This document shows positions 7,662 through 52,984 of a DNA stretch of 64,000 nt, piece after piece (within the stretch, counting starts at the first letter, position 1; each line of letters opens with the position of its first letter). The notes under the pieces are model-generated. The model was not told the origin of the DNA, did not search any database, and worked only from the letters and a program-made list of their open reading frames with translations. The stretch is from NCBI GenBank assembly GCA_963924555.1, contig OZ004596.1:4536139-4600138 (forward strand), written 5' to 3'. Both the position numbers and the translations under genes were made by a program. The DNA comes from Crambe crambe. Lineage: Eukaryota; Porifera; Demospongiae; Poecilosclerida; Crambeidae.

Positions 7662-9634
7662 ATGAGATGTAATGATCATTGTTTAAGTATGGCGGTTTCT
7701 TTCACCTTGAGTGTAGGTAAAAGCGTGTGCCTGATTGCCATAGTAGCTTGGTCCATCGTTGCCATTCTGTGGATGGTGGAGATAGCTGGAGTAAGAGAAC
7801 TGGATTGTCGGAATACTTCTGCAAATAAGGAGGTGTCTGTGATAAAGAGCCCTGGCCCTGCGAATAAGACTGAGAAGATGTTGAAGTACTACTTATCACA
7901 AATCCGAAACAGAACGAAATTCAGTAAACAGGAAAATTGTACAGTGGTCATTGTAGCTCACAATGGGTTTCCTGTGCTCTTCAATCTTCTATTACACTAT
8001 TGCAGAAAGATCACTTGGATCGATAGCGTTGTGGTGATATGGAATAATTTGAATGCTACTATCCCTGCATCTCTAACAAGTTTGAATAGAACTTGTGAAG
8101 CAAATCTTAAGTTCATTCAGTCAAGCAAGGACAGGTACACAAACAGGTATTTGCCACGAAAGGAAATAGAGACTGACTGTAAGTTCTTTTTCAGTGATAG
8201 AGTAGCTAAGTTCTTTATTTCTCATCACTCCCTCATGATCATCACCTCAAATCCCTCCTCCCCACCTCAGAAATTCCTCCTCAACATGTCATTATTGCAA
8301 ACTTGGGACCACACCCTCACAAAATTTTGGTCATGAATAATGACCTTCCCACCCACCCTCAATAAAGTGTCTGGTAAGAGGCAGAGATGATACTCATAAT
8401 AAAATATAGCTTGATTTAATCCACCCCTCCCCAGTACATACATAGTGTGGTGATGGGTATTATCGAGTAGGGGATTTTAATATCTGACCTGACAATTAAC
8501 CTCTAAAATTAACCAGACAAGATGGCTCACCCCTCTTAATATGTATGATTATGTAGGTGTATTTCTTATCGATGAGAATCGTTTGGTTTCAAGATTTGAT
8601 TTAGATTTTGGATTTGAAGTATGGCAGGTATGATGTATATACAAACAGTGGAACCATTGAGTAATGGACACAGCTCTTTTTGGAGGTTGGTGCATGATCA
8701 TGCAAAGATTTTCCTTCCTTGAGAAGTGTCCTTTGTCAGATGTTCCATTGTGATGTATCTCTAACATCATTCATTGTCTTCATTGTCTTCAGAATTTCAG
8801 GCATCGAATTGTCGGATTTGAAGAAAGAGGATTCATGATTGATCCTAACCACAATTATATTTATGTCAATTATGAACGAAAGAGATCTTTTGGCACCTCA
8901 CCTTCTTCATTATTTATAGAGATCGTAGATGGCATCAGAATATTGCACTACAAGAACAAAACATTTATTTTAGGAAAACAGCCAAATAAGATATCAAAAC
9001 TGTCTGAAGTAACGACACCAACTACACCCACCATGACTAAGTCAGAAGGCTACAGCATCATTCTTAATTCTTGCTTTATCCACAGGGCATATTTAGAGAT
9101 GTACTTTGACCCATTAATGCTTCCACCAGCTGCGGTACGATATGTCGATAATCAAAGAGATTGTGAGGACATCCTTTTGAATATTTTGGTTACCAAATTC
9201 TTGCAAGATGTGAAGTGGTCACCTGGTGGTGTGTTGGCAGTTAAGAGCAATATAAAGATAAAGTCTGTATCAGGTAAGTTATGATCAAATCAACGGGAAA
9301 AGTTTCTATAGCTGAATCAACAATTTTAGTTTCATCTTCAGTATTCATTAATTCCAGCCAGCTAGAGTGGAAAATATGGACATAAAATAAGAAAAAAGAC
9401 TGTTGATGTCTTTATTAAATGGGTTGTAGCTAATAATCTCTTTCTGGTTATTATGTGTTTTCTTCTCTGCTTTTCTATAATAGAGAATAACTTTTATTCA
9501 GAACACAGTGCAAAGATATCTGTACCAACAAGACCAGAAAACTTTCAGAAACGTTCTAAATGTTTAGATAGATTTTCACGATTTTTTGGTTATTTGCCAT
9601 TACATATTTCAAATACCGTAGTTACACAGGTCTG

Positions 9635-9729: not shown

Positions 9730-12150
9730 ATGAGCATGCGCACTGCTTTGGGGCGGGGCCTTTATCGATGCATGCAAGGCAGCAGGAAGATGAAGTTGGA
9801 GTTGTTAGTCTCCAGAACTAGGCACTTTATAGTTATCCTCCTCCTGGTTATTCTGAGCTTAGGAGCAACCTTGTGGATGATCACCACCTTGAGTATGGAC
9901 AGCAGGCACCTGAACTGCGGAGAGAACAGACGTGACGCCCACCCTTCGGAGGCTACGTTATCTCGTGAGGAACAAATTGCACAAAGACTGAAGTATTACT
10001 CATCAATGATATTCAAGGCGGACTCCAAGAGCCTCAAGGAAAACTGTACCTTAGTCATGCTGACTTACAAACGAAACAATATACTCCCCAAAATCCTGAT
10101 GCATTATTGTAGAGTGCCACAGCTTCAGAGGATCGTAGTGGTGTGGAATGATATTGATACACCAATACCCCCTAATATCACCAATATTACGGCTACTTGT
10201 GATGCAGACTTAAAACTGATTGTAGCAAAGAAAAATAAACTCACAAACAGGTACATACCCAGGGAAGAAGTCAACACTGACTGTAAGTTTTGTTAGTAAT
10301 ATACATTGTCATGGCTTGAGCTACAGTACGTACCAACCCAACCTCAGATAACTGAACTCCACTTGGTAGCTATACACTTGTATACCTGGAGCTCTACCAC
10401 CTCAAAATGATCACTCCAGGTCTCTGGGGAAAAAGTGCCCTGATCATGTATAAACTAGCTATCCGTTCACCAATTTTTCAGCCCTAGAAAACCATCACAA
10501 AAATTTCCCCCATGAAATTTTCCCCATCCTGCTATGATGTATTATGAGCTGTAGTAATTGGGGGGCGGATGCAACGAGCCCCACACTAGGAAGTTAATTA
10601 TGTTCTAACATTGCAGCACTTGATGCTTGCACTTCACTTTGAGATGATTATTCTAATGGCTCATTGATAACAATGAAACCGCTCTGTAACAACCATTCAT
10701 CCACTCTGTACACATCTCATGAAGTTCAACCACGCTGTACACATCTCCCCAAATTGACCTGAATCATCATGTAGCTGAACTGAGTACAGCGTGAGATGAT
10801 ACAACTGATCATATGGACCATAAAATGTGTTTATTTGATGCTGAAAAACAACAACAAAACTAAAGTGGTGCACACTCACTCACTGTCACTGGACCCTATT
10901 AGCCAAAAATGTAGTAATTTGCACTTAATGTGGTTATTTTGTGGTAGTGGAGCAGATGTTGTACACTTTATGACTAAAAACACAGACAGTTAATAATTAG
11001 TACTGTGTGTGTAGGTGTATGCCTTATGGATGATGACCGCATCATTGCAAAACAGGACTTAAAGTTTGGATATGATGTTTGGAAAGTACGTGAGTTAATT
11101 TTGCAATGGAATTGCAGGAGTTTCCCCATAATTCAGTGAGTTAATTTTGCAATGGGATAATTTAGTGCAATGAGTTATTTTGCAGTGGGAATTTAGTGCT
11201 AAATAAGATGATAAAGTCATGACTTTCTACATAATTGGCACGATTTACTGATCCCTCTACCCCCCCCCCCCCCCCCCCCCCCCCAGAATTTTAGGCACCG
11301 AGTGGTTGGATTTGAAGAAAGGAGTTTTATTTCGTATCCGAATAAGACCTATTCATATGCTCCTTATTTCCGGATGAGAAATACTGACCCCAGGTCGTCA
11401 AAAAGAACAAACCCCGTGAAAACCAACCGTCCATATTATATAGAGACTGATGCCAATGGAAACAGAATCCTGCATTACAGAAACAAGACATACATCTTAG
11501 GAAGACAGAATACGCTCAGCAACCAAACTTCAGTCACTTCTCACACTTTCATCGGGGAAAGATCCAAGGGTTACAGCATCATGCTGAATTCCTGTTTCAT
11601 CCATAGAACATATCTAGAAATGTACTTTGACCCTTTGATGTTCCCTCCTGGCATTATAGAATATGTTGACCAAAAGAGGAATTGTGAGGATATTCTAATG
11701 AGCATTCTGGTGACAAAGTTTCTGCACGACATAGGGAGGCCACAGTGTGGTGCACTGGCTGTTCATGCATCAGAGGGAATACGGAATTTGGAAGACGAAG
11801 CATGTAAGTAAATTGTTCACAGCTTCCCCCAGATAAAGCAGTTTCTTTATACCATTTAAAAGAGGGGTCTAGGATCAGGTGAATTACTTTTTCAACTTGA
11901 TTAAAAAAAATCCCCCCCCCCCCCCCCCCCCACATATATATCTTGTATAAAATATGGTAAAGGGTCACCACCTATTCATTATTGTTGTTTGTTTCATACA
12001 GTTGAGTTGGGTGGACGTCAAGGACTTTCCAACAGAACAGATCACTATGTGGGCCGTTCAAAATGCCTGGAGAGATTTTCCCAAGCCTATGGATACCTGC
12101 CTCTAAAACTGTCAACGGTTATTATGACACGGGTTATATACAGGGTATAG
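9730..12150 (+). CDS. Exostosin-like GT64 glycosyltransferase, copy 2
   Basis: This is the tandem paralogue of the preceding gene, with the same four-exon design and intron positions (exons about 9730-10280, 11016-11085, 11286-11807, 12001-12150). The N-terminus is a type II signal anchor (RHFIVILLLVILSLGATLWMI). The true start may be ATG 9730 or the internal Met at 9790 (MKLELLV). The GT64 domain shows CTLVMLTYKRNN, LQRIVVVWND, TNRYIPREEVNTDC, the intact DXD motif LMDDDRII, FGYDVWKNFRHRVVGFEER, SIMLNSCFIHRTYLEMYFDPLMF, VDQKRNCEDILMSILVTKF and KCLERFSQAYGYLPL. The stop is TAG 12148-12150. Only 94 bp separate the stop of copy 1 from this start, so the duplication is compact. The gene probably acts in Golgi glycan synthesis. 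A GAGCATGCGCAC motif overlaps the first ATG. Confidence 0.83.
11260..11284 (+). repeat. Poly-C tract acting as polypyrimidine tract
   Basis: 25 consecutive C abut the AG acceptor of exon 3 of GT64 copy 2, so the homopolymer is also the intron's polypyrimidine tract. Confidence 0.9.
11912..11931 (+). repeat. Poly-C tract in last intron of GT64 copy 2
   Basis: 20 consecutive C follow a run of A in the intron before the final exon. Confidence 0.9.
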
Positions 12151-14092: not shown

Positions 14093-14273
14093 CCTACACT
14101 CATAGGTTTGATCAAATCTGATTTAGCAACTAAAAGTGAAAATATGACGTACCAAAAATAATTCTATTTCTTAGTTATAAAACCACATCTGTAGCTATAA
14201 CTACACTTAAAAAGTAACTAAACTACGAGACATTTTTTTTTCCTAGAGTTGTACACATGTTGCATTGACTTCA

Positions 14274-30886: not shown

Positions 30887-32991
30887 TCACCACAGCTCAC
30901 ATTTCTTCATGGGATTCATTCGTGATCCCGTGGGACAGCTGAAAGCTTCTGCAAACTCACGACTGTTGGAAAGTATCCCAAGAGGTCTGTGTACGACACA
31001 TAAAGTCATGACAATGAATGTGTATGCTGATGATGATTGTCTTTATTATTGAATACCTTATTGGATCTGGACTGTGGGGGTCAGTTAACAAACGGTTCTT
31101 CTGTGCTGCGAGTGTTGCCACCCAGCAATATATCTATAAGAAGAACAATAATTAGCTATATCCTGGTATATACCTAACATTACAAACTGCACCTGAGCAT
31201 GACCTAAAAAGAACAGCTGGTCTGGATTGTACGGAAGTCCAGGAAGCTTCTGCTGAACTTTTCCTGTTTTGCTCACATAATTTTTGTATGCCTGCAGCAG
31301 CATTAAATGACATAGTCATTTTTGATTTCTTCACAGTTTGTAGCTATAGAAATATCATGGTAATCATGTAGTTTGTACCTGATAGGCAGTAGCTAGACCT
31401 CCATTGTCTGCAATATTCTCACCAAGTGTAAGTGTACCATTCACCTAAAAAATCATATAAAGAAAGGCAGCTGCTCAGCTTAATTATAATTGGTATAGCT
31501 ATAATATTATACCGGTCCAGCAGGAAGAGAATAGTTACCGTACTGCTCAATGAAGCATTGAGCTCTGGAGTTGAAATTATCGAGTGATTCAGGAGTCCAC
31601 CAGTTATCAAAGTCCCCCAACTCATTAAATTGCCGACCTACATTGACATAAAGATTAGCAAGCTAGCGACAGTCGTCATAAAAATAGCATACATGTAAAG
31701 TTTACCACTATTATCGAATCCATGAGTGTACTCATGACCCACCACATATCCCATAGTCCCAAACAAGAAATACCTATAATAATCACTGAAACAGCATATG
31801 TCTGCAAAAACTTAATCACTCACTCAGGCCAGTAGGTTTTGAACACAGGTGTATCAAGTATTCCTTCAAGAATATCTGCATGCATTACCAATTATGAGCA
31901 CACCACATGTAGCTACTTCTGAATAACTTACACATCTGATTTAACTTAGGATTATATTGTGCATTGGTTTCAGTTGGATTAGACAGCCCTGCATTTAATG
32001 CCCAGGTTGATCTGTTGTTAGCCATTGCAAAATAACTAAATTTCTTGATGAAAGAAGATCTCTTGGAGTTAATCACATTGATGAAGAAGGGGTGATCCAG
32101 GGAAACGTTTAGCTGCAAAGGTTCAAATATAAGCTTCATGGAGTCCTACACAAGACAGAACTCACCCCACTGTAGTAACCATTCAGGAAAGTGTCATTGT
32201 ATATAACGTCTGGGTATGCCAAAAAACGCTTGATAGAACTAAGTTTTTTTAAAGCTCTATTTTTTGTGGGAGCATCGAGCCAATCCTTTCCACTGATGCG
32301 GCTGTGCAGAGCCTTTTCTAATTCTTCTGTAAGAACTGCGAGTTTTTCCTGTAATTTGAGGAAACATTCAAACTATAATAGTGAAATAGAAATCAAAACA
32401 CTCACTCTGGCCCCCATGGGAAGGTACTGTTCAGTGTATGTCCTTGATAGAGCCAGAGGTAGATCTTCTTGAACTTTGCTAACACATACTTTATAGTGCA
32501 CAGGACCTTTAATGACAGAATTGTATTTATAGAACCTCAAAATAAAGGACACACAGCTATTTTATTCCTTATAGAGATTAAACATTTGGGACCTTGAAGG
32601 TCGTCCTTTAATGTAGAGAGCTTATTTCTATTCACAGAGGTTTTTATACATAGTACATAATATTGTAATAATACAAACTTGGTGAAGATGCTGTAAATTC
32701 TGGACTCAAGTATGGTAGAAGAGAAGAAATAAACTGCCACTTGGCATAATTCTCCAGGACACTGAGTAAAATGACCAGTCAATTGTAATCAAACCATGTA
32801 CCATGTAGCTATTATGACTCACGTGGAATTTGTTTGTCGAATTAGGTCATTCATTGAAGCAATGTATTGCAGTGGCAGCACACTAACATGAGCCGATAGA
32901 TCGATATCAGTGATCCCAGCAAGACTCCCATAGTACTCTACATTTTGGGACCAGTTGAACTATTCAACAACAACAACAACAACGACAACAA

Positions 32992-36265: not shown

Positions 36266-36396
36266 CTCTACCTGAAAAAAAAGAGAAGATGTCAGCTGTA
36301 GCTACAATGGGACCTTCCTTGATACATCAGTGTCAACACTGCATGTGGCTATAATGAACTTAATACTGCATGTGCATTTCAAAAGAGATATTATGA

Positions 36397-36500
36397 GCAC
36401 ACCACATGTAGCTACTTCTAACTTACATATTTGATTTAATGTGGGACTATATAGTGCATTGGTTTCAGTTGGATTAGATAGCCCTGCATTTAATGCCCAG
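36397..36500 (-). pseudogene. Isolated M13 exon relic beside the Fanzor element
   Basis: On the minus strand it reads [20 protein letters not shown] then LNQI, still ending at a GTAAGTT donor. It is nearly identical to the corresponding exon of copy D (31930-32006). Homology stops abruptly at 36500 (GCCCAG). The element's left TTAA begins 27 bp further right. No neighbouring M13 exons are present. Confidence 0.82.
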
Positions 36501-36503
36501 ACA

Positions 36504-36528
36504 AAACATTGATGATAGCATTTACTTT
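36504..36528 (+). repeat. 25-bp direct repeat, left copy
   Basis: AAACATTGATGATAGCATTT then ACTTT. It matches 38827-38851 at 24 of 25 positions (C against T). It lies between the M13 exon relic and the left end of the element. Confidence 0.85.
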
Positions 36529-36530
36529 AA

Positions 36531-36542
36531 CCCTAGAACTAC
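36531..36542 (+). repeat. Left terminal inverted repeat of the Fanzor element
   Basis: CCCTAGAACTAC, directly preceded by TTAA (36527-36530). It continues into TTTGTGGGCCCCAAGGACCC, a subterminal GGG/CCC-rich stretch also common in piggyBac-like ends. Confidence 0.85.
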
Positions 36543-36721
36543 TTTGTGGGCCCCAAGGACCCGGCAGCTACAAATCTTGCAACGTACGTACGTACGTACG
36601 TGTGAATTGAGACTTTCTGCGCATTCGCAAAGTTTGAAGGATTCGATCGAGTGCGCATGCTTGCAAGCATGCACAGATACAAGTCCGTTGCTAGGATAGC
36701 TGTCTGGGCTGTTGGACTTTC

Positions 36722-38659
36722 ATGTTGTGGAAAATGAGTTCTTCCAAAAGGCCTTCTACAGCCACAGAGTGCAACCCCAGCAAGAGAAGAAAGCTGAAAG
36801 AAGAACTGAAGTTCTGCACACTAAAGTGCAAGTTAAAGAGAATCACAAAGTCCAGCAATGTACTGTCCAGAGTGAAGGATGAAGTTGTTTTGGCCCACGA
36901 AGTCTTCAAGAGGACACTCTTCTTTATGAGACTATTCTTCTTGGAGAAAGGAGAGGTTCCTCTCATAAACTTGTCCCTGGTGAAGGAGTGTATGAACAGA
37001 GTCAGTATGCGTGAATCCAGGGGGGCAAAGCTGAAGGACACGGGTATGGGCGAGGAACTTGATCGTTTCTGGAAGAAGAGTTTTATCGAAATATATCCTG
37101 ATCGATTAAACTTCAAAGGAAGGAGCATGATGAAGCAGCTTCTTGCACAGCAGATCCTTAGCAACATCCTGGTAGACACAAAGACACACTTCAAGTCAAG
37201 ATTCAGGACTTTTCTGGAGAGTCTGCTGAGAGACGGTGATTCTAATGGAAATCCCAAGTCAGAGGCACGCAAACTGACAGGGCAAGTCTTTGCAAACCAC
37301 TGGAATGACGTTCCTATAGACTTAAAGAGAAAGCTGCGGGACATCTTGCCCGCTGATGTGGAGAAAAGTGTGGCTTACGATGTCACGAAGAACCCAGAGA
37401 AGTACCTGAATGCTACGTTAAGCATGTGCCGGGAAATGGAACGAGTTCAAAATGCGAAGAAGAAGATACATTTCCTTCCCACGAGAACAAGCAATGTCCC
37501 CTGTCATGCTAAATTTGACACTGAAACCATGGCTCAAATGCTTGTCCCTTACAAAGAGAGAGTTGAAGCTAGAAAGTCAGCACTCCACAGAGAGGATTAC
37601 AACGACTGGGTCTGGACGAAGGTGGTAGATCGGTCCCAAATGGTGTTCAGAAAACTGAAAGGCTTCAAGTTCCACCATGAGATTAGTACTGATGGAGTGG
37701 CGGTTTCTATCCTCTTCTCCAGAAGAGCAACTGTAAAACCTGCAAGACCAATGTCCACTGGGGTCCATGCTGCGGAAGAAGCAGAAGGGCCTAGATCCAA
37801 GGCAATTGGAGTGGATCCCGGGAGAAAAAATCTTATCACTGCAATGGATAGTGATGGAAACTCCCTTAGGTACACTTCGAGGCAGAGGCTATTCGAGAGC
37901 AAGGAGACCAGACGCAGAGAGGTACTCGAACGCGAGAAGAGAAGGAGTGAAATTTCTGAACTGGAAGTGCACCTGACCAAATTCGAACGCCAAACCGTGG
38001 ATCCTGCAAGATACAAGCAGTTCCTGGTGGAAAAGCGAAAGGTGGATGAACTCACCAGAGCCTTCTATCATAATGAAAAGTGGAGAGGGTGGAAGTTTCG
38101 GACATACTGCCACAGAAAGAGTAGCGAATACATGCTAATCAACAGAATAATTGACACATACGGACCTCACTGCAAGATCTACTACGGGGACTGGTCCTCT
38201 ATCCACCAACAGAAGGGATGCACGCCCGGGCCCACAGTGGGACTCAGGAAGCTTCTGAGCAAGAGGTTAGAGACAGTGAGCGTAGACGAATTTCGAACCT
38301 CCAAGGTCTGCAACCGATGCTTTGGGGAGTTGACCAGATACAGAAACATAAGAGGAAGATTATCTCACTCCAGGCTAAAGTGCACAAACTGTCGATCTGG
38401 AAGCAAACCTCTCTTCGTAGACAGAGACAGAAACGCAGCAGCCAACATTTTGCTGGCCGGAGAGTCTACAGAGAGACCACAGGCACTGTGTAGAAGTTGG
38501 AAAGAAGCATCTCCTTTCTCCAAAGCTCCACGAGAAGTTGGACTAAAAAGCTTTTTAGGAGAAAAGAGTGCACAATTGACTGAACCTCCAGGAGGAGCTG
38601 GTGGACTATCTAGTGACCCAGTGTTTACTCAGGTAGACATGTATACTGCTGAAGCTTAG
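36722..38659 (+). CDS. Fanzor (eukaryotic TnpB-like, predicted RNA-guided DNA nuclease)
   Basis: This is an uninterrupted, intronless 645-codon ORF among multi-intron genes. The start is ATG 36722 or Met5. A basic stretch KRRKLK (residues 21-26) could be a nuclear localisation signal. An N-terminal half of about 350 residues (recognition/wedge region by analogy) is followed by the RuvC nuclease. It has RuvC-I AIGVDPGRKNLI (Asp365), YYGDWSS (about 487-493) at the place of the usual RuvC-II strand but without the canonical Glu, and VSVDEFRTSKVC with Glu523, the relocated Glu typical of Fanzors. The zinc ribbon is C530-x2-C533 and C554-x2-C557, and RuvC-III is VDRDRNAAANILL (Asp567/569). ERPQALCR after RuvC-III resembles the RPxxLCR ending I associate with Fanzor1. 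The last 60 or so residues are low in recognisable motif and may overlap a guide-RNA gene. All catalytic positions look intact, so the protein is predicted active. Family members characterised so far cut DNA guided by an omegaRNA. It is not a bacterial contaminant, because it is embedded in the M13 array. Confidence 0.93.
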   Translation: MLWKMSSSKRPSTATECNPSKRRKLKEELKFCTLKCKLKRITKSSNVLSRVKDEVVLAHEVFKRTLFFMRLFFLEKGEVPLINLSLVKECMNRVSMRESRGAKLKDTGMGEELDRFWKKSFIEIYPDRLNFKGRSMMKQLLAQQILSNILVDTKTHFKSRFRTFLESLLRDGDSNGNPKSEARKLTGQVFANHWNDVPIDLKRKLRDILPADVEKSVAYDVTKNPEKYLNATLSMCREMERVQNAKKKIHFLPTRTSNVPCHAKFDTETMAQMLVPYKERVEARKSALHREDYNDWVWTKVVDRSQMVFRKLKGFKFHHEISTDGVAVSILFSRRATVKPARPMSTGVHAAEEAEGPRSKAIGVDPGRKNLITAMDSDGNSLRYTSRQRLFESKETRRREVLEREKRRSEISELEVHLTKFERQTVDPARYKQFLVEKRKVDELTRAFYHNEKWRGWKFRTYCHRKSSEYMLINRIIDTYGPHCKIYYGDWSSIHQQKGCTPGPTVGLRKLLSKRLETVSVDEFRTSKVCNRCFGELTRYRNIRGRLSHSRLKCTNCRSGSKPLFVDRDRNAAANILLAGESTERPQALCRSWKEASPFSKAPREVGLKSFLGEKSAQLTEPPGGAGGLSSDPVFTQVDMYTAEA

Positions 38660-38710
38660 CTTAACTTAGCTTTGGTAGTTTAAGGGTTAAAAGAGATATA
38701 CTAGCTATAA
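38560..38710 (+). ncRNA. Predicted omegaRNA scaffold and guide region (speculative)
   Basis: In TnpB and Fanzor loci the guide RNA scaffold is transcribed from the 3' end of the element and the guide comes from flanking DNA just outside the right end. Here only 27 bp lie between the stop and the element end, so a scaffold would have to overlap the 3' coding region. The region contains a CCTCCAGGAGG palindrome (about 38585) and the direct repeat CTTAGCTT (about 38655-38673). The guide would start near 38687-38691 (TTAAAAGAGATATACTAGC). No transcript or structure was computed. Confidence 0.35.
38675..38686 (+). repeat. Right terminal inverted repeat of the Fanzor element
   Basis: GTAGTTTAAGGG, followed by TTAA (38687-38690). 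It is the inverse of the left end with two mismatches. Confidence 0.85.
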
Positions 38711-38954
38711 TATATACCACTCACCAATAATAGGCTAATAGTCTCGTTTACGTTTAGGGGTTGGGCTGGGGGTGAGGGACAGCTATAGAGTTAGCTAGGC
38801 TAAGAGATCTCTCGATCTTACAAAATAAACATTGATGATAGTATTTACTTTTTGAGAAATATTAAATCAGCAAAGAATATCACAAATCAGCAATCTATAA
38901 TGTCAGTGGCTATTATTAATACCAAAGCAAGCTACAATAAGTTGAGTAGTGTGT
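38691..38954. other. 3' flank of M13 copy E with right copy of the 25-bp repeat
   Basis: TTTAGGGGTTGGGCTG (38753-38768) and CAGCAATCTA...AAGCAAGCTAC (about 38889-38935) match the 3' flank of copy D, so this side is the native E flank. The 25-bp repeat (38827-38851) lies inside it, which makes the left copy at 36504 the displaced one. Confidence 0.6.
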
Positions 38955-41900
38955 TCACCACAGCTCACATTTCTTGATGGGATTCATTCGAGATCCCGTA
39001 GGACAGCTGAAAGCAGCTGCAAACTCATGACTGTTGGAAAGTATCCCAAGAGGTCTGTGTACAACACAAAGTCATGACAATGAATGTGCATACTGATGAT
39101 GATGATTGTCTTTACTGGATACCTTATTGGATCTGGACTGTGGGGGTCAGTTAACAAACGGTTCTTCTGTGTTGCGAGTGTTGCCACCCAGCAATATATC
39201 TATAAGAAGAACAATACTTAGCTAGCCTGGTATATACCAAATATTACAAACTGCACCTGAGCATGACCTATAAAGAACAGCTGGTCTGGATTGTATGAAA
39301 GTCCAGGAAGCTTCTGCTGAACTTTTCCTGTCATGTTAACATAGCTTTTGTATGCCTGCAGCATTACAAACTGAGTCATATTTGGTTGTATCAATGTAAT
39401 ATCTAGCATATTATAGCTGCATTAATCCTTTCTGTGGTTTGTACCTGATAGGCAGTAGCTAGACCTCCATTGTCTGCAATATTCTCACCAAGTGTAAGTG
39501 TACCATTCACCTAAAAAAAATAAAAATAAAAAAAAGGCAGCTGCTCAGCTTAATTATGATTGGTATGACGATAATATACCGGTCCAGCAGGAAGAAAATA
39601 GTTACCATACTGCTCAATGAAGCATTGAGCTCTGGAGTTGAAATTATTGAGTGATTGAGGAGTCCACCAGTTCTCAAAGTCCCCCACCTCATTAAATTGC
39701 CGACCTACATTGACAAGTTAGCAACAATCATCATAAAATACCTGACATCATACATGATTGTAAGTGTTTACCATTATTATCGAATCCATGAGTGTACTCA
39801 TGACCCACCACATATCCCATAGTCCCAAATAAGAAATACCTATGATAATCACTGAAACAGCATATGTCTGCAAAACCTAATCACTTACTCAGGCCAGTAG
39901 GTTTTGAACACAGGTGTATCAAGTATTCCTTCAAGAATATCTGCATGCATTACCAATTATGAGCACACCATATGTAGCTACTTCTGAATAACTTACACAT
40001 CTGATTAAACTTAGGATTATATTGTGCATTGGTTTCAGTTGGATTAGACACCCCTGCATTTAATGCCCAGACATTTCTGTTGTTAGCCATTGCAAAATAA
40101 CTAAATTTCTTGATGAAAGAAGATCTTTTGGAATTAATCACATTGATGAAGAAGGGGTGATCCAGGGAAACATTCAGCTGCAAATATTCAAATATCAACC
40201 TCATGGAGTCCTACATGCATGAGACAGAACTCACTCCACTGTAGTAACCATTCAGGAAAGTGTCATTGTATATAAAGTCTGGATATGCCAAAAAACGCTT
40301 GATATTACTGAGTTTTTTTAAAGCTCTATCTTTTGTGGCAGCATCGAGCCAATCCCTTCCACTGATGCGGCTGTGCAGAGCCTTTTCTAATTCTTCTGTA
40401 AGAACTGTGAGTTTTTCCTGTAATTTGAGGAAACATTCAAACTATAATAATAGCGAAATAGAAATCAAAACACTCACTCTGGCACCCATGGGAAGGTACT
40501 GTTCAGTGTATGTCCTTGATAGAGCCAGAGGTAGATCTTCTTGAACTTTGCTAACACATATTTTGTAGTGCACAGGACCTTTAATGATAGAATCATAATT
40601 TCTAAGTAAACTGTATTAGTTTGCTGCAGCAGCATAGAAAGTCATTGATGTGATAATTATACTAAAATTAGTGACAACCAAAATATAGCCAAGTCTACTA
40701 CGTGCCAAGGCATCGAGTCTTTTTAAAGACAAACTTGTTAGAGGTACATATATGTAATAGCATACTTGGTGAAGATGCTGTGAATTCTGGACTCAAGTAT
40801 GGTAGAAAAGAAGAAATAAACTGCCACTTGGCATAATTCTCCAGGACACTGAGTGAAATGACCAGTCATTTATAATGAAATAATATACTAGCAATACTAG
40901 GACTCACGTGGAATTTGTTCGTTGTATAAGGTCATTTATTGAAGAAATGTATTGCAGTGGCAGCACATTGACATGAGGCGATAGATCGATATCAGTGATC
41001 CCAGCAAGACTCCCATAGTACTCTACATTTTGGGACCAGTTGAACTATTCAATGAAAAAATAAGCAAGTCAATAAACACCAACAGCTAACCCACTTTTAT
41101 GAGACTTACCACTGGCATAGCTTCACGGAGTTCAGCAAAAGTCATGTATGTTACCTTGCTACTTACGTTCCTGCCTTTCAGATCAAAGTCATAAAACTAG
41201 TTTTGGGATGATGATTATTGGTGGTATAGGGAAGATACTTTCTGCATACCTTAGACATTTCTGTTTCAAAGTCCAGAATATCATCAGCTGCATCACCATA
41301 TGTATCGTTAGAGATGGAAGAATTGATCTGACTAAGAACCCCAATGATTGAGCTCTTTAACTGCATAGTCAATGAAATGTAACTATAAAAATTGGACTCT
41401 CAATCGATGTGCTGATGAATTCTTTTTTACTTACCTTTTCAATTAGCTATAGCACTAGCGCTATTTTACCTGTTCTCTGAGTGGACCAGGTTTATAGTAA
41501 TCTGGAGTAGGGGACGACAGTCCACTTTGCGATACCTATATAACAAAATCATGTAACATACTTCAATATTCATGCACACACCCCATTTACAGTCAGTATG
41601 TTTCTTGATGTGTTGGTTAAATCAATTGAAACTCCTAAGCTGAAAAAGGCTGGGTTTCCATACAGCTTCTCCAAGAGGAGACCTTGCCGATCATTGATGT
41701 CCCATGTGGTGCCAAGGTCTACACCAACTAAAGGCCACCCACCTACAGTGGTAACATAATGCAACTTAAACCTGTAGAATGTGTGCAAGTCCATTCTTAT
41801 CCCAAACCTGTACTTCTGATTAGTCCCTTCAGAGAACTAATCAAGTTTTCTGAAGTGTCCATCTTCATGCATGATTGGTAGTATGTGATAGCTTTTGCAA

Positions 41901-48677: not shown

Positions 48678-50519
<1,842 letters not shown>

Positions 50520-50866: not shown

Positions 50867-51790
<924 letters not shown>

Positions 51791-52081: not shown

Positions 52082-52984
<903 letters not shown>

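Follow-up and report, generated by a model that had tools for sequence, protein, structure and literature searches.

We analysed a 64,000-nucleotide stretch of the genome of the sponge Crambe crambe (contig OZ004596.1, positions 4,536,139–4,600,138; hereafter the window) that carries a Fanzor gene within a compact, TTAA-flanked element. Copies of this Fanzor element in the same genome share a nearly constant right junction and have variable left ends, and at 8 of 27 right ends the target, comprising TTAA and the next 9 or 10 bases, was found again on the left. Based on these genomic scars, we put at roughly one in two the probability that this is a Fanzor1-type element living at TTAA sites, whose nuclease takes the right flank as its guide and cuts the empty site, with repair copying the element in from the right. 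The broader proposition, to which we give slightly less than even odds, is that an animal genome harbours a natural homing drive guided by RNA. It would use its own right flank as guide, the empty allele would be broken 9–10 bp past TTAA and the element copied across, aborted copies down to 16 bp would record single repair events, and the same rule would explain the motif-plus-N duplications of algal and fungal Fanzor elements.

The element spans 2,156 bp (36527–38690 including TTAA; all features are given on the plus strand) and lies on G000:C19 in a genome of 143 Mb and 119 contigs. TTAA stands once on each side, at 36527–36530 and 38687–38690, and the termini CCCTAGAACTAC (36531–36542) and GTAGTTTAAGGG (38675–38686) match in inverted orientation at 10 of 12 positions, which confirms the ends given in the original prediction, a note made from the letters alone. 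The left end (36527–36542) thus consists of TTAA and CCCTAGAACTAC, the right end (38675–38690) of GTAGTTTAAGGG and TTAA, and a subterminal palindrome GGGCCCCAAGGACCC follows the left end at 36548–36562. No transposase was found inside the element, where the only other open reading frame (ORF) of at least 150 aa was antisense to the Fanzor gene; this too had been predicted.

The Fanzor1-type RNA-guided nuclease ORF (36722–38659) reads through in the standard code for 645 aa without need of an intron. The protein matched the Pfam Cas12f1-like zinc ribbon PF07282 (E 2.9e-6) and Fanzors of known structure from Spizellomyces, Parasitella and Guillardia, with an E-value of 6.7e-24 for the Spizellomyces punctatus Fanzor chain; all three strong Protein Data Bank matches (E ≤ 4.6e-18) were Fanzor1 proteins. 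In a 10-sequence alignment (A2), the RuvC residues D365, E523 and D569 were invariant and the zinc-ribbon cysteines 530, 533, 554 and 557 were at least 90% conserved. The protein therefore has both the RuvC D...E...D with its glutamate at the Fanzor position (D383, E541 and D606 in the SpuFz1 reference) and the C4 zinc ribbon followed by RD (R568-D569) that mark Fanzor1, and the intact, intronless 645-codon gene with RuvC and zinc-ribbon motifs read from the letters held up in the alignment and the PF07282 match. The stretches GVDPGRKN and VDEFRTSKVC align with corresponding stretches of SpuFz1, which, we infer from the 158-residue spacing, contain D383 and E541. Among 7,990 candidates scored in a search of 5.8 billion proteins, 11 relatives were found at E ≤ 1e-5, the best being 50% identical.

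The original prediction called for a search of the genome for further copies, and these exist. Of the 16 matches from a DNA search, one was the window itself, two touched the flank alone and one was a 46-bp stub; the others belonged to nine more loci of the family, some of them matched in two pieces. A protein search gave 74 Fanzor matches. The latter included several diverged Fanzor families, roughly 30–57% identical in most matched stretches (e.g. L043, L065, L070, L045 and L032; L numbers denote loci). A right end GGTAGTTTAA[GA]GGTTAA was common to L060, L061 and L065, and the left ends of L070 and L043, which belong to other Fanzor families, start with TTAACCCTAGAACT. The right-end pattern occurred at 17 exact 16-mer places and 9 with one mismatch, against 10 in all for the reversed-pattern control, whereas the 16-mer of the left end was found exactly 4 times and with a single mismatch 3 times, against 6 for the control. 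The exact occurrences were in the window, in L009, in L020, of which the left ~75 bp alone are present, and in L070, where no right end was recognised; right-anchored fragments, in contrast, were common. Broader end-pattern listings gave 54 and 39 matches; outside the 26 right-end places, L085 was taken from them as a Fanzor end and L071–L077 as control candidates. L085 (L085:262–323, C21:461802) is a short remnant of the 3′ part in which six additional bases, CTTGAC, separate GGG from TTAA and which adjoins a palindrome, and L017 is an inverted, rearranged copy (L017:1985–2400) with an inverted internal piece and TTAAGGTACTATGCATG in inverted duplicate. A pattern search of viral contigs gave 54 stretches, none of which was a relative.

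Compared with the window, the ratio of nonsynonymous to synonymous substitution rates (dN/dS) was 0.19 for L009, 0.24 for L010, 0.26 for L011, 0.35 for L012 and 0.19 for L013. Because the values against all five copies lie within 0.19–0.35, the Fanzor lineage has been under purifying selection. In-frame stops were found in L009 (one), L012 (one) and L013 (three), while L010 and L011 had none but contained gaps not divisible by three; the window ORF is therefore the only intact one among the window and these five copies.

The right junction was nearly constant among copies, reading ...TAAGGG|TTAA (TCAA in L066) and then passing into differing flanks, and homology between copies did not extend past the right-hand TTAA, beyond which the flanks differed immediately. 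On the left, a full end was found in the window, L009 and the fragment L020. L010, L011 and L012 are truncated inside the subterminal palindrome, L014, L015 and L016 retain just 356–444 bp, and L052, L057, L059 and L062 retain 16–22 bp. The expectation that copies would be bounded exactly at TTAA thus held nearly always on the right side, and failed on the left, where copies are truncated and 8 of 27 have a 13–14-bp duplication. One 5′ deletion is found in L010 and in the two copies that retain the left end, the window and L009, but is absent from L011 and L012. Separate truncations of L010, L011 and L012, with a stall at the hairpin, are therefore suggested; a tree of the last 340 bp was weakly resolved and does not settle their independence.

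We then measured target duplication at 27 right ends, consisting of all 26 pattern places (17 exact and 9 with one mismatch) and L085. L063 and L064, probably chance pattern matches, are counted in the 27, and L042, whose right end is broken, was left out of the duplication and folding analyses. From each TTAA-like word in the first right-flank bases, a 13-mer was sought in up to 2.4 kb leftward with a threshold of at least 12 of 13 matching bases. A left copy of TTAA+9 at this threshold was found for the window, L009, L010, L012, L052, L057, L059 and L062. L011 was a ninth formal match, which was dropped since it falls within its own ORF, and L066 scored 11/13, below the threshold. When flanks were swapped between loci, 8 of 702 comparisons reached 12 or more, four of these being the L011 flank against the ORF, and permutations gave a mean of 0.27 duplicated loci with a maximum of 2, compared with the 8 observed. 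The duplication comprised TTAA+9 in four loci and TTAA+10 in four, and none was longer (13–14 bp). The left copies were TTAAAAGAGAGAAA in L009, TTAAATC[A/G]AGAAT in L010, TTAAATCACACAA in L012, TTAAA[T/C]AGTAGGAC in L052, TTAA[G/A]TATGTAGAC in L057, TTAAACACCTCCTT in L059, TTAAACATAGCAA in L062 and T[C/T]AAAAGAGATAT in the window. All four mismatches between duplicate copies were transitions, fitting later mutation, and the duplication is still borne by stubs of down to 16 bp (L052 and L057). Possible decayed duplications were seen by eye in L051, L055, L056 and L011 and were left out of the count.

In the window, the second copy of the right-flank target, TCAAAAGAGATAT (36379–36391; TTAA-equivalent + 9), matches TTAAAAGAGATAT (38687–38699) at 12 of 13 bases and lies 148 bp left of the left-end TTAA, which is therefore probably not the outer edge of the insertion event. 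It ends at the start of a ~114-bp filler that resembles a local repeat (36390–36503; 87% identical to 39956–40073 and 90% to 31891–32005), after which a second, 25-bp filler (36504–36528) matches the right flank at 38827–38851 with 24/25 identical bases by BLAST. Filler followed the left duplication in most of the eight loci and copied nearby DNA in several. In L009, the left flank is present twice ahead of the complete left end and continues into TTAACCC; L052 has 21 bases of filler, 20 of which match the right flank ~40 bp away; the filler of L059 consists of repeats of the element's own end and that of L012 of a short target-like stretch; and L010, L057 and L062 have little or none. Templated patches of this kind are typical of polymerase-theta-type or template-switching repair.

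In the mechanism that we propose, the element would first land at a TTAA, probably through a piggyBac-type transposase acting in trans, and RNA from its right end would include the right flank, to serve as guide. Loaded with this RNA, Fanzor would break the uninterrupted TTAA-flank on the homologous chromosome 9–10 bp past TTAA, and the right side of the break would prime leftward copying of the flank, TTAA, GGG and the element. A complete copy would amount to homing in gene-drive fashion. An aborted copy would be end-joined to the left break side, still bearing TTAA plus 9–10 bp, often with short templated filler, and such alleles without a left end would be beyond remobilisation by the transposase and persist as fossils. 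Because the left junction lies at TTAA+9/10, the recipient would be an uninterrupted target broken inside the flank, unlike piggyBac excision, which would break at TTAA itself. Since the right break side is fully homologous to the occupied allele and the left side has a 9–10-base mismatched tail, copying should start on the right, which would account for the right-anchored truncation of the copies. The double left flank of L009 leading into TTAACCC is as expected for copying through the element into the left flank of the allelic donor. These footprints fit aborted copying by a homing element, and they support action of the nuclease at empty sites more strongly than the original prediction had proposed.

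The main rival is LINE-like target-primed reverse transcription, in which a host retrotransposon enzyme would have copied a Fanzor transcript ending in GGGUUAA into TTAA sites; we consider it unlikely. Anchoring at the 3′ end, 5′ truncation and target duplications are hallmarks of long interspersed nuclear elements (LINEs), and the fixed 3′ end, the 5′ truncation, the 13–14-bp duplications and the lack of an intron in the Fanzor gene all fit. An A follows the right TTAA in 9 of 9 family-A copies (the nine-copy set), against 27% of TTAA words in the window, which is compatible with a TT/AAA endonuclease, and slippage during priming could account for the extra TTA or TTAA seen at a few right junctions. 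However, no poly(A) or tail repeat was seen, and both complete copies start precisely with TTAACCC, the DNA terminus, which is unexpected for a transcript. The terminus TTAACCCTAGAACT also recurs in other Fanzor families (L070 and L043). Moreover, TTAA is near-strict and the duplication is capped at +10 in eight loci, whereas LINE target duplications usually spread more widely in length.

In all 14 copies tested, the last 64–84 bases of the element are predicted to fold into a three-stem RNA, in which UGACCC/GGGUUA forms the closing stem and two hairpins follow within it. These copies (the window, L009–L017, L054, L060, L061 and L065) are the ones whose right end is intact over a sufficient length; the set does not include L042 and L085. 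The closing stem uses GGG and TTA, so that the target duplication sits within the scaffold, predicted in the window at 38613–38690. Single-sequence fold z-scores for six copies ranged from -0.86 to -2.48. In a 9-sequence alignment, 91.1% of cells pair compared with 86.7 in shuffles, 6 pairs have two-sided changes compared with 2.2, and the covariation score of 0.229 (0.146 in shuffles) was reached by 0 of 500 shuffles, while slid versions fell to 28–46% paired; the structure was derived from the same sequences, which favours it, hairpin II aligns badly between families and the stretch is partly coding, which adds constraint. A search of the window with the guide-RNA model gave 38613–38690 as the sole match up to E 5, and Rfam gave no match across 36400–38900 up to E 1. 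Fanzor1 guide RNAs are described with a three-stem layout and the target duplication within the scaffold (PMC10711439). Because the predicted fold shares this published layout, the guide would by analogy be the right flank (38691–38706), and the duplication extents would place the break in the empty target 9 or 10 bases into this flank.

Such a guide might also choose new sites, with Fanzor cutting guide-like sequences elsewhere and the element being copied there without any transposase. The close pair of the window and L009 have TTAAAAGAGA in common at their right flanks, as this would predict. Across nine copies, however, flank similarity did not track element similarity (correlation 0.16, p 0.20 over six bases; nine copies give little power), so guide-directed choice of new sites was not supported and we regard ectopic insertion as very improbable.

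The element shares the TTAA target, the CCC...GGG ends and a short imperfect terminal inverted repeat (10/12) with the piggyBac superfamily, and piggyBac parentage is plausible. It differs in lacking a transposase and in its footprints beyond TTAA, and no partner with matching ends was identified. The genome contains 62 piggyBac-transposase (PF13843) matches, many with open frames, the nearest of which lies 195 kb from any of 33 end-motif matches; the best other piggyBac-like end compared, CCCTTTGCCTACCAAA, matches at 13 of the first 16 bases, a limited similarity. An autonomous piggyBac with matching ends, which the original prediction would need elsewhere in the genome, was not found, and of its piggyBac-like non-autonomous vehicle, the multi-copy TTAA-anchored Fanzor element in an animal genome was borne out, and a clean piggyBac vehicle was not. 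Exact TTAA duplication at both ends is absent from L009 and probably from the window. In open-access literature listings and in accessible text of PMC3627910, PMC10432273, PMC11423790, PMC10711439 and PMC12324416, we found no assignment of a Fanzor element to the piggyBac superfamily. In a simple form of the original prediction, Fanzor would be the passenger of a non-autonomous piggyBac element of the ordinary kind, which duplicated TTAA cleanly and was later eroded by deletion. This would suit the multi-copy family and the window, with its TTAA on both sides and inverted repeats, but deletion cannot produce TTAA+9/10 duplications with templated filler around 16-bp stubs, and we hold this account to be quite improbable.

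As a control, three copies of an array-linked piggyBac family with TTAA at the right and left flanks ending in TTAT, GTAT and TTAA showed 0/3 duplications, with best 13-mer matches of 7, 10 and 8 in 102–332 bp of left flank. A fourth copy, C12, was dropped because its right end abuts another such end and no end stands at the expected left place, and the GGAGATTAAGGGTTAA repeat (six loci) was dropped as its motif is internal to an unrelated repeat. Two piggyBac transposase copies separated by 4,335 bp form a direct tandem at G000:C3:3512312 and 3516647, with ends TTAACCCTTTGGC ... GAATG|TTAA. The control bears on one-ended piggyBac-type transposition, in which the right end alone would be joined to TTAA and the free target strand extended by ~10 bases and joined to a trimmed flap, with no role for Fanzor. 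The piggyBac-like right junction in nearly all copies, the abundance of piggyBac transposases and the extra TTAA at some right junctions agree with it. It gives no reason for the extension to end at +9/+10, the three transposase copies lack such a duplication, and a similar layout has been published for Fanzor Helitrons (PMC3627910); we judge it improbable.

Those published cases are the closest parallels. According to the accessible text of PMC3627910, 5′-truncated Fanzor1 Helitrons of Chlamydomonas have duplications of mostly 7–19 bp downstream of TTTT, found in about 70%, 57% and 10% of three Fanzor families compared with 1 of 200 non-Fanzor Helitron-1N1 copies, and Mucor MCi-2 elements have fuzzy 5′ ends and ATAATTNNNN(N) duplications. 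CRe-1/2/3 (the Chlamydomonas Helitrons) and MCi-2 thus resemble the sponge element in their Fanzor1 gene, constant 3′ end, truncated or fuzzy 5′ ends and duplications of a motif plus variable bases, and differ in their Helitron or unassigned vehicle and their TTTT or ATAATT motif (PMC3627910). The Chlamydomonas case was explained in 2013 as one-ended transposition, before nuclease activity was known, and Bao & Jurka left undecided whether Fanzor causes the difference in duplication (PMC3627910). Insect-virus Fanzor1 elements (SFav-1 and relatives) are likewise compact and non-autonomous, with a 4-bp TTAN target, 13-bp terminal inverted repeats and a three-stem guide RNA including the target duplication (PMC3627910, PMC10711439); this likeness comes from descriptions, not sequences, and unlike the sponge element they reside in viral genomes with only short duplications reported in those descriptions, where they are given no transposon family. 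The Guillardia theta Fanzor1, GtFz1, which the 645-aa protein matched, uses TTAA as its target-adjacent motif and cuts after bases 14–17 of one strand (PMC10432273); its dependence on TTAA is confirmed in PMC11423790, where one sentence swaps two motifs. It differs from the element here in its cut 14–17 bases from the motif and in that neither inverted repeats nor an association with a transposase were found for it (PMC10432273). The TnpB nucleases of IS200/IS605, with their cut-and-copy retention, and homing endonuclease genes follow the same proposed logic of a nuclease that cuts the empty site and repair that copies the element, which here is read from genomic scars alone, in an animal.

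Several points weigh against homing. No counted duplication was found at 19 of 27 right ends, among them that of the young copy L015, which is 99% identical over 356 bp and has none within 2.4 kb. The 13-mer test is blind to duplications much shorter than TTAA+7, so that the lower length edge is partly imposed and the test is free of bias only as to the lack of longer ones. In Chlamydomonas, some duplications reach far greater lengths, 44–443 bp (PMC3627910). The extra 3–6 bases between GGG and TTAA in L059, L062, L051 and L085 were unpredicted. Only the window and L009 have both ends in the window family, and neither is clearly a plain TTAA...TTAA insertion, yet the homing model needs such donors. 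Taken alone, the 12/13 left match of the window could be chance (~1% per locus, as 8 of 702 flank-swapped comparisons scored as high, 4 of the 8 from one ORF-matching flank), in which case the window would hold a plain TTAA insertion. An empty paralogous site was sought for the window and for L052 and none was found, nor was an empty allele (one locus searched). TTAA stays beside the guide sequence at the occupied right end, where a TTAA-only motif would permit self-cutting, so bases further upstream must play a part. The proposed cut at +9/10 falls closer to the motif than the 14–17 measured for GtFz1, although with TTAA included in the numbering it would fall at bases 13–14, near 14. The piggyBac control is also small.

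The break-and-copy footprint at insertion sites is the new content here. If homing is correct, Fanzor elements would multiply through the cutting of alleles that lack them and would be nature's counterpart to engineered gene drives, for one of which incomplete homing has been reported (PMC4913862). The scars give a sequence-level prediction of cut position, target motif and guide. A 2023 paper called the role of Fanzor nuclease activity in host organisms unknown (PMC10432273). The homing rule would also account for motif-plus-N duplications in algae and fungi and imply a general biological role for Fanzor, and it offers one explanation for the 5′-truncated copies described in 2013 (PMC3627910).

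Elsewhere in the window, genes for an ASC/ENaC-type sodium channel, PP2C and the Ras family are consistent with an animal host. A local array of diverged repeated segments surrounds the element at 14270–40073 (copies at 14270, 19602, 26974, 30885 and about 38950), perhaps exons of tandem genes. Tandem pairs at 51060–51581 with 52302–52775 and at 7662–8336 with 9730–10296 contain Ras-family and glycosyltransferase-64 gene pieces, and a TC microsatellite of 229 units (99% match) was found at 49749–50206.

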